From Streptomyces avermitilis MA-4680 = NBRC 14893 (GTDB lineage: Bacteria; Actinomycetota; Actinomycetes; Streptomycetales; Streptomycetaceae): a stretch of DNA of 64,000 bases. The translations under genes and the position numbers were made by a program. Positions 41,274-64,000 of this stretch are shown here, piece by piece. The stretch lies in contig NC_003155.5 of assembly GCF_000009765.2 (NCBI RefSeq), positions 1,178,001 through 1,242,000 on the forward strand. Direction: 5' to 3'. How positions within the stretch are numbered: position 1 is the first letter of the stretch; each line of letters begins with the position of its first letter. Under the pieces are notes generated by a model, which had not been told where the DNA came from, made no database searches, and worked only from the letters and a program-made list of their open reading frames with translations.

Positions 41274-41346
41274 TGGAGCGCCGGGCAGGGCTTGCACCTG
41301 CATTTCCCCGCAGGAAGCGGGGCGTCTTTCCTTGGACCACCAACGC
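41274..41346 (-). tRNA. tRNA-Gly(UCC)-like gene with encoded CCA and aberrant T-loop, copy 1
   Basis: The minus strand folds into a 73-nt cloverleaf: acceptor GCGTTGG/CCGGCGC (two G-T wobbles), T8, D-arm GTC/GAC with A14 and GG in the loop, G26, anticodon arm CCCCG/CGGGG with loop CTTCCTG (anticodon TCC, T33 kept), 4-nt variable loop, T-arm GCAGG/CCTGC with loop TGCAAGC, discriminator T and encoded CCA. Known glycine identity elements of bacterial tRNA-Gly (G1-C72, C2-G71, G3-C70, U73, C35, C36) are all present, as is the A15-T48 pair. Odd points: G at position 55 where T is near universal, and T at 37 where a purine is usual. TACACT at 41388-41393 (minus) is a plausible -10 box. A near-identical copy is at 47751-47823. 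Confidence 0.7.
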
Positions 41347-47750: not shown

Positions 47751-47823
47751 TGGAGCGCCGGGCAGGCCTTGCACCTGCATCTCCCCGCAGGAAGCGGGGC
47801 GTCTTTCCTTGGACCACCAACGC
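47751..47823 (-). tRNA. tRNA-Gly(UCC)-like gene with encoded CCA and aberrant T-loop, copy 2
   Basis: 73 nt with the same cloverleaf as the copy at 41274-41346. Differences are few: variable loop AGAT, T-loop TGCAAGG. Acceptor GCGTTGG/CCGGCGC, anticodon TCC, discriminator T and CCA are unchanged. G55 and T37 recur, so these are not random decay. A possible -10 TATGCT lies at 47865-47870 (minus), about 40 bp upstream, and a stem-loop with TTTTT follows the CCA end. The shared upstream block GCTCAAGATCAAG (plus-strand sense) is conserved in both copies. Confidence 0.72.
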
Positions 47824-61892: not shown

Positions 61893-62257
61893 CATCACCG
61901 AACTGCCGGTCCTGCGCGGCTACTCCGACACGGCTGTGCTCAAGGAGATCGCCACCCGTTTCCGTACCCGGGAGGTGCGGAGCGGGCAGGTCCTCTTCGA
62001 GGCCGGGCAGCCCGTCACGGAGGCATATGTGATCGCCCACGGCCGGTTCACCCGCTACACCGCCGGCAAGTACGGCGAGGAGGAAACCATCGGGGTCGTC
62101 ACCGACGGCGACCAGATGGGCGACGAGGCCATCGGCCAGTCGGACCCTCTGTGGCTGAGCTCGGTCCGGGCCGAGACGGCGGGCGTGGTGCTCGTGCTCC
62201 CCTGGGACGTCGTCACGGAGTTCACCGAGCGGGTGCCGTCCCTCGCGGCGCACCTAG
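61893..62257 (+). pseudogene. Internal fragment of a family 2B encapsulin/EshA-like protein (cyclic-nucleotide-binding domain)
   Basis: About 120 codons are open: ITELPVLRGYSDTAVLKEIA, VLFEAGQPVTEAYVIAHGRF, GKYGEEETIGVVTDGDQMGD and a WLSSVRAETAGVVLVLPW stretch to VPSLAAHL. This is a CNB (Crp-like) domain, but the lead-in ELPVLRGY and the GPYGD/E, VLADG, FGD-like spacing resemble family 2B encapsulins (EshA type), where such a domain is inserted in the shell protein. Both ends are lost: the 5' side runs into the divergent kinase gene, the 3' side is cut by an IS701-type element. A plain Crp-family regulator is the alternative. Confidence 0.6.
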
Positions 62258-62309: not shown

Positions 62310-63673
62310 GTGGATGCACATGAAGTGAACCGTGCTCGGGCGACGTTGGCATTATTCGTGGCTGACGTGTTCGCGTCGGTGCCGCGTAAGGACCAGCGGG
62401 CGAAGGGCGACTGCTATCTGCGGGGGCTGATGCTGGACGGACGGCGTAAGTCGATCCAGCCGATGGCAGAGCGGCTGCCGGATGGCAACGAGCAGAACCT
62501 GCAGCAGTTCGTGAACCAGTCGACCTGGGATCCGGTGCCGGTGCGGCGGCGGATCGCGGAGCGGATGGTGGCGCAGATCGGCCCGGATGCCTGGGCGGTC
62601 GATGACGTGTCGTTCCCCAAGGACGGCAAGATGTCGGTCGCGGTCGCGCACCAGTACTGCGGGGCGCTGGGCAAGCAGGCCAACTGCCAGGTCGCGGTGA
62701 GCGTGCACGCGGTCTCCGACACTGCCTCCTGCCCGCTGCAGTGGCGGTTGTTCGTGCCCCAGGAGTGGGCGCACGACGCGCCACGGCGGCAGAAGACCGG
62801 GATACCGCCAGAGGTCGGGCACCGGGAGAAGTGGCGCCTGGCTCTGGACATCTTCGACGAGCTGGCCGGGTGGGGGCTGGTGCCGCCGGTGGTGGTGGCC
62901 GACGCCGGCTACGGGCAGAACGCCGACTTCCGCGACGGCCTGGACGGCCGGGGCATCGGCTATGTCGCGGCCATCCGCTCGGATGTGACCGTCCATCCGC
63001 ACGATGCCGAGCCTTTCGCGCCGCCCTGGTCGGGCAACGGCCGCAAGCCCCAGCCCCGCTACCGCGACAAGCCGTCCTCGGTGGCGGCGCTGGCGACCGG
63101 CCACGGGCGGCAGGCCTTCACCGAGGTGACCTGGCGGGAAGGCTCCCGCGGACCGATGCGCTCGCATTTCCTGTCCCTGCGGGTGCGGCCGGCCGGGGTC
63201 AAATCCCGACGCCTCGCCCAGGCCGCCGCCACAGACGAAAACTGCTGGGACGGTGTCCTGCCCGAGGTCACACTGCTGGTCGAATGGCCCGAAGGCGCCG
63301 AGGCGCCCACCGACTACTGGCTGTCCAACCTGCCCGACACGCTCTCCCTCGCCGAACTGGTCCGCCTGGCGAAGATCCGCTGGCGCATCGAGCACGACTA
63401 CCGCGAACTCAAGCACGGCCTCGGCCTGGACCACTTCGAGGGCCGCTCCTGGACCGGCTGGCACCACCACGTCTCCCTGGTCACCGCCGCCCACGCGTTC
63501 CTCACCGAACAGCGTCTGGCCCCAAAAGCCGGTACAGCGGACTCACCCTCTACCAGACCCTCGACGCCATCCAGGACCTGCTGAACTGCTGGAGCGGCAC
63601 CTGCACCACCTGCCACCGCCCCCTGCCCAAAACATCCACCACCAGCCACAACCCAAGAGCCAGAGCAACCTAA
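62310..63673 (+). CDS. IS701-family transposase, probably made by -1 frameshift at 63521-63527
   Basis: From GTG 62310 the zero frame encodes 424 residues ending at 63584: WAVDDVSFPKDGKMSVAVAH (first Asp), VVVADAGYGQNADFRDGL (second Asp), RWRIEHDYRELKHGLGLDHF (Glu) and EGRSWTGWHHHVSLV, the IS701 DDE core. Its last 20 residues are low-complexity. At 63521-63527 the in-phase heptamer C CCA AAA allows a -1 shift; the new frame reads YSGLTLYQTLDAIQDLLNCW and SGTCTTCHRPLPK, well-formed protein that stops at 63673, ten bases before the end repeat. The shifted product of about 454 residues is probably the full transposase. A plain mutation is the alternative. Confidence 0.85.
63521..63527 (+). promoter_or_regulatory. 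Slippery heptamer CCCAAAA for -1 frameshifting
   Basis: The heptamer has the X XXY YYZ form in the transposase reading phase (codons GCC CCA AAA). A -1 slip continues as AGC CGG TAC, the frame that holds the conserved-looking C-terminus. Confidence 0.6.
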
Positions 63674-63683
63674 CGGAGCCCTA

Positions 63684-64000
63684 CTAGGTGTATGAGGACA
63701 GGACGTTGGTGACGGTCATGGGCAGGCGGATTGCCGGTGGCTGGTTTCCAGCTGCCCCGTGTGGGCGGTGGTAGTTGTAGTGGATGTTCCAGACGCGGAG
63801 CGCATCTGAGCGTTCTTGCTCGCATTGCCAGCTCCGGGCGTAGAGGAATTCCTCGGCGAGGATGCGGTGGTACCGCTCCACTTTGCCGTTGTGGCGAGGT
63901 GTGTATGGGGTGATGCGTTGGTGCCGTGCTCCAAGCAGCGCGCGAGCGAAGGCATCGGCTCGGTAGCAGGCTCCGTTGTCGGTGACGATCCGCTCGATGG
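63684..64000 (-). CDS. IS481-type transposase, C-terminal part (continues beyond window)
   Basis: About 105 codons are visible: ERIVTDNGACYRADAFARAL, RHQRITPYTPRHNGKVERYH, RILAEEFLYARSWQCEQERS, NIHYNYHRPHGAAGNQPPAI and a TVTNVLSSYT end. TDNG, TPRHNGKVER and YHRPH are the rve integrase-core marks of IS481/IS3-type transposases (second Asp and Glu of DDE). The 5' part lies beyond 64000. The stop codon TAG coincides with the CTAG target of the IS701-type element, and no terminal repeat of this element remains on that side. Confidence 0.88.
   Translation of the reverse strand, partial: IERIVTDNGACYRADAFARALLGARHQRITPYTPRHNGKVERYHRILAEEFLYARSWQCEQERSDALRVWNIHYNYHRPHGAAGNQPPAIRLPMTVTNVLSSYT

Follow-up and report, generated by a model that had tools for sequence, protein, structure and literature searches.

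The window analysed here is a 64,000-nucleotide stretch of the genome of Streptomyces avermitilis MA-4680 = NBRC 14893 (NC_003155.5, positions 1,178,001 to 1,242,000), towards the right end of which lies a complete element of the insertion sequence (IS) family IS701. The transposase gene of this element is divided between two overlapping reading frames, an upstream zero frame with the whole DDE catalytic domain and a -1 frame with a short C-terminal module, which are joined at an in-phase slippery heptamer. Judged from the sequence and its relatives, the transposase is very probably made by programmed -1 ribosomal frameshifting. The features of the element, in window coordinates, are the following.

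62254-62257: left 4-bp target duplication, CTAG, recognised by CTAG at both ends here and at the identical copies L002 and L003
62258-63683, plus strand: complete IS701-family element of 1,426 bp bounded by inverted repeats, one of three identical copies in the genome
62258-62273, plus strand: left inverted repeat, TAGGGCTCCGTTAGGT, 16 bp and perfect
62310-63584, plus strand: zero-frame open reading frame (ORF) of 424 residues with a GTG start and a full DDE catalytic domain (PF13546, NF033540), giving a product without the C-terminal module
62601-62606, plus strand: two adjacent Asp codons, one of them the likely first catalytic D (AVDDVSFPK), placed by sequence
62901-62903, plus strand: likely second catalytic D (VVVADAGYG), placed by sequence
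63390-63392, plus strand: likely catalytic E in KIRWRIEHDYRELK, an R-x3-E-x6-K motif without the tyrosine, placed by sequence and by the motif in PMC2266710
63521-63527, plus strand: slippery heptamer C_CCA_AAA, with zero-frame codons CCA AAA, -1 frame codons CCC AAA and G as the next base
63527-63673, plus strand: -1 frame C-terminal module, CWSGTCTTCHRPLP, 48 residues and a stop, with a CxxC motif, recognised by frame, length and the ratio of nonsynonymous to synonymous substitution (dN/dS)
63582-63584, plus strand: zero-frame stop, codon 20 from the slip CCA codon
63668-63683, minus strand: right inverted repeat, with the -1 frame stop TAA (63671-63673) inside it
63684-63687: right target duplication, CTAG

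The zero frame belongs to the IS701 family, reaching 426.5 bits with the NCBIfam model NF033540 (transpos_IS701, cut-off 150), and it carries the full Pfam domain DDE_5 (PF13546) with an E-value of 1.8e-101. RefSeq gives an 88%-identical copy the same GTG start as that at 62310. Both catalytic D positions (62601-62606 and 62901-62903) are those that we presume from knowledge of the family; the likely D, D, and E codons, together with the DDE_5 domain, all lie within this upstream frame. IS701 transposases have an R-x3-E-x6-K motif from which the tyrosine is usually missing (PMC2266710), and AKIRWRIEHDYRELK indeed has R, E, and K correctly spaced, with A replacing Y. The length of 1,426 bp and the 16-bp perfect repeats fall within the 1.4-1.55 kb and terminal inverted repeats typical of the family. 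The same holds for the YTAR-like 4-bp target duplication, since CTAG surrounds the three identical copies at unrelated sites; a YTAR-like target would also fit the truncated relative L005, which has CTAA instead of CTAG. The three copies within the 9.1-Mb genome are 100% identical over the element, have unrelated flanks and are each bordered by CTAG duplications. Because identical copies occupy unrelated sites, the split-frame form must have transposed recently.

The match to NF033540 ends at residue 404, shortly upstream of the slip site, where the zero-frame codons read GCC CCA AAA GCC, so that C_CCA_AAA is an in-phase X_XXY_YYZ heptamer within the overlap of the two frames. Translation of the -1 frame from 63527 gives SRYSGLTLYQTLDAIQDLLNCWSGTCTTCHRPLPKTSTTSHNPRARAT, and joining it to the zero frame yields a protein of 454 amino acids, whereas the zero frame alone leaves 99 bp of the element unused. 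The first-pass annotation of the window had pointed to this in-phase heptamer, to the DDE triad in the zero frame and to about 100 bp left over by it, all of which held on inspection. It had also placed the -1 frame stop ten bases before the terminal repeat; the ten bases are correct when counted to the end of the element, and the stop itself lies within the right repeat. In many members of the group, the right inverted repeat (CCTAACGG and variants) itself provides the stop of the -1 frame. No Pfam or NCBIfam model covers the C-terminal module, and RefSeq follows the zero frame only, its plasmid records ending the transposase at the zero-frame stop (e.g., the coding sequence 504-1781 of L225).

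Such an annotation, and the appearance of one copy taken alone, would suit a frameshift mutation or a sequencing error in the window copy, that is, a pseudogene. Drawing on the genomes of species, on plasmid records and on searches of genomes, we assembled 128 distinct full-length relatives and compared their frames as the first-pass annotation had proposed. The C-terminal module lies in the -1 frame in 125 of the 128, and the exact in-phase C_CCA_AAA is found in 118 of these 125 split-frame elements; diverged relatives thus keep both the heptamer and the frame layout rather than one fused frame. The three exceptions, the fused or shifted copies L052, L071 and L081, each come from one record and have additional indels, and a search for fused relatives near the window element returned only degenerate single records, namely these three and L146. 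Within the S. avermitilis genome, the split is common to the three identical copies and to a fourth copy with 78% DNA identity, in which GGCCCCAAAAG stands in the same phase and the -1 tail is intact; a more distant copy with 53% identity has GACCCAAAAG and the same arrangement. The heptamer also recurs in Rhodococcus plasmid elements of about 53% identity, and in L150 and L151 at 46-47% identity. A pseudogene is hence an extremely unlikely explanation, which the sequences of the relatives already refute. In one of the Rhodococcus relatives, L222, the -1 tail follows GCGCAAAAAGG. The S. avermitilis genome also harbours a member of another, distant IS701 subgroup (L011/L260, C1:137598-138659), with the conserved C-terminus WSTWRRRRQHQARISHYKRR in the -1 frame; no recognisable slip site could be assigned in L011/L260, and we left it out of the counts.

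At the heptamer, the codons CCA and AAA are invariant, even though both are minority codons in the remainder of the gene. Of the 106 conserved degenerate codon columns in the alignment, CCA and AAA made up two of only three without synonymous variation. Other conserved lysine columns have AAG (113 of 115 and 113 of 117 sequences). In the rest of the same ORFs, CCA accounts for 4.2% of the proline codons and AAA for 15% of the lysine codons. Every one of the 118 elements has G directly behind the heptamer, and the flanking positions are variable. As these 118 were picked for CCCAAAA, the unbiased figure for the heptamer is 118/125. In 110 of the 118 genes it is the only in-phase heptamer of its kind. 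Relative to the slip CCA codon, the zero-frame stop is codon 20 in the clade of the window element (62 elements); in the 54 elements of the other large clade it is codon 7. The genome encodes one tRNA-Lys with the anticodon UUU and three with CUU; the preference for AAA over AAG would be explained if the slippery tRNA-Lys(UUU) must occupy the A site.

The pattern at the heptamer also bears on whether the ribosome or the RNA polymerase slips. In the latter case, the polymerase would add a base at the C3-4A4 run, creating a mixed pool of mRNAs that are read by unshifted ribosomes. The C and A runs are contiguous at the site, G/A runs occur at the same junction in proteobacterial IS701 elements, and transcriptional slippage is used by IS elements with runs of 8-9 A (PMC1088944). 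Four A and three or four C are, however, far shorter than those 8-9-base runs, which favours the ribosome over the polymerase. Moreover, the invariant block CCCAAAAG preceded by a variable base corresponds to a ribosomal X_XXY_YYZ signal rather than to a required homopolymer length, and AAA instead of AAG is fixed in a genome that has tRNA-Lys(UUU). We therefore regard transcriptional slippage in these elements as unlikely and infer that the ribosome slips. The invariant heptamer would be left unexplained if the C-terminal part were a separate protein with its own start in the -1 frame. In the window that frame is open from 62606 on, a long way before the slip site, but an ATG, GTG or TTG codon between 20 codons before and 12 codons after the slip occurs in only 12 of the 118 relatives; we rejected independent initiation of the tail on this count and consider it extremely unlikely.

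Past the zero-frame stop, the -1 frame, and only the -1 frame, is under purifying selection. Its dN/dS is 0.30 in the window clade and 0.47 in the other clade, compared with 3.9 and 1.05 for the zero frame beyond its stop and 0.96 and 1.6 for the +1 frame; these values pool many non-independent pairs, so that their direction is meaningful and their precise size is not. This selection, together with a heptamer that stays invariant in relatives with as little as 46-57% protein identity, makes it very unlikely that the zero-frame product serves as the transposase by itself, with the -1 frame left over from a fused ancestral gene. Two observations would suit that reading: the zero frame holds the entire catalytic triad, and the tail is missing altogether from a distant clade (L202-L208, 37% identity).

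Several observations weigh against programmed frameshifting. The 128 relatives are mostly Streptomycetaceae and are not phylogenetically independent, and the heptamer is missing in 7 of the 125 split-frame elements, several of which retain a tetramer (C_CCU, C_CCG or A_AAA). No conserved RNA structure was found downstream of the slip site, where RNAalifold gave values near 0 in both clades: individual sequences do fold into a candidate stem-loop or pseudoknot, yet neither clade has a consensus structure, and we discarded this stimulator. An upstream Shine-Dalgarno stimulator was not found either, the pairing to the anti-Shine-Dalgarno sequence being weaker than background. Neither of the two kinds of stimulator that we looked for, RNA structure and an upstream Shine-Dalgarno sequence, is thus evident in the cassette. 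Stimulators are common in -1 frameshifting and not obligatory. In E. coli, C_CC.A_AA.A belongs to the motifs at which more than 0.1% shifting occurs with no stimulator present (PMC4066793). As neither a structure nor a Shine-Dalgarno sequence was found here, frameshifting may be inefficient and depend only on the heptamer.

The first-pass annotation had read the site as a programmed -1 frameshift, which the split frames and the heptamer in the relatives support. The frames and the signal suggest the following course. Ribosomes would translate the DDE domain in the zero frame; most of them would pass C_CCA_AAA unshifted and stop 18 codons beyond the slip, releasing a product that lacks the C-terminal module. 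A smaller fraction would slip back by one base, with tRNA-Pro re-pairing from CCA to CCC and tRNA-Lys(UUU) from AAA to AAA, and would append the 48-residue CxxC tail. The resulting 454-residue protein would be the equivalent of the single-frame IS701 transposases of Deinococcus. This long form is most likely the active transposase, whose low yield, perhaps together with interference from the short form, would limit transposition.

A 2016 review names IS1, IS3, IS5, and IS630 as families with frameshifting, which as a rule links a DNA-binding portion of the protein to the catalytic one (PMC5009743). As in IS1 and IS3 elements such as IS911, a heptamer of the X_XXA_AAR class joins overlapping frames into the transposase (PMC5009743, PMC4066793). 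Unlike in those families, the catalytic domain here lies wholly upstream and the shift adds only a CxxC tail of 35-50 residues; the arrangement of an upstream DNA-binding regulator, OrfA, and a downstream catalytic frame, OrfB, is absent. The Shine-Dalgarno or stem-loop stimulators of IS911 were not found here. With the IS701 family, the element shares the DDE domain, the 4-bp target duplication, the R-x3-E-x6-K motif, and its size, but that family is annotated as having a single ORF, in contrast to the two frames here. IS701 was split off from the IS4 family, which was itself defined by having no frameshift (PMC2266710). Like the transcriptional slippage of other IS elements (PMC1088944, PMC6211511), recoding here would restore a broken frame, although in Streptomyces the site consists of a short heptamer in phase and not of a long homopolymer. 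A further parallel is IS982 (ISTli1, ISLpl4; PMC7335449), normally a single-ORF DDE family in which some members need a frameshift; it was described there for single elements, whereas the arrangement here is conserved over a multi-species clade. We found no report of frameshifting in IS701 in the open-access literature, ISfinder and subscription journals being outside the search. Within that literature, the first-pass remark that frameshifting has not been described for IS701-type elements stands, since the review names only the four families above. The sequences thus support programmed -1 frameshifting in a family without known use of it, and the arrangement, in which a DDE domain that is already complete would gain a CxxC tail, is unusual.

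When 69 catalytic domains were placed in a tree, the 42 -1 elements among them all fell into a single clade (96/88). Outside it, proteobacterial IS701 elements (ISBj6-like, ISAzs1-like, and others) carry a homologous CxxC tail at the same place in the +1 frame, preceded by G/A runs (4-8 A) or by C6; those identified in plasmid records are L214-L217, L219, L220, L276-L280 and L282-L284. Two close relatives whose run is shorter by one base (L275 and L227) are fused and read straight through. Transcriptional slippage is a candidate mechanism for the +1 elements and a likely model for their G/A-run variants. Three Deinococcus elements, including ISDds6, have the tail fused in frame, and the -1 tail of the Streptomyces elements is homologous to these single-frame tails in position and in the CxxC motif. 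As the proteobacterial and Deinococcus comparison comes from about 18 plasmid records, it is a lead rather than a finding. We lean towards viewing the boundary between the DDE domain and the CxxC tail as a recoding hot spot across IS701, at which the -1 slip would have been fixed once in Actinomycetota, two proteobacterial lineages would have arrived at +1 (likely by transcriptional slippage) and Deinococcus would have the fused gene, with selection acting for two isoforms by any recoding signal.

If this reading of the window element holds, one more widespread IS family joins those that regulate their transposase by recoding, here by adding a tail to a complete catalytic domain or withholding it. 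Public annotation would then truncate such transposases throughout Streptomyces and its relatives, and element copies deemed broken may be intact. The group would also offer a natural -1 frameshift signal that is conserved in GC-rich actinomycetes and has no evident stimulator, and IS701 would permit a direct comparison of the same gene in its -1, +1, and fused forms.

The divergent IS701-like genes L202-L208 of Streptomycetaceae, which have 37% identity and no C-terminal tail, are possibly domesticated; one of them, L207, adjoins an oxidoreductase-like ORF. As for the surroundings of the window element, its insertion at 62254 interrupts a gene for a family 2B encapsulin shell protein (NF041163; cyclic-nucleotide-binding part, window 61936-62253), and the end of an IS481-family transposase (window 63684-63998, minus strand) directly adjoins the right target duplication. 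Elsewhere in the window are two low-scoring tRNA-Gly(UCC)-like genes at 41274-41346 and 47751-47823, both on the minus strand and about 6.5 kb apart, which score 40-42 bits as against about 70 for many tRNAs of the genome; the pair is possibly a duplicated stretch or a set of tRNA-like repeats.
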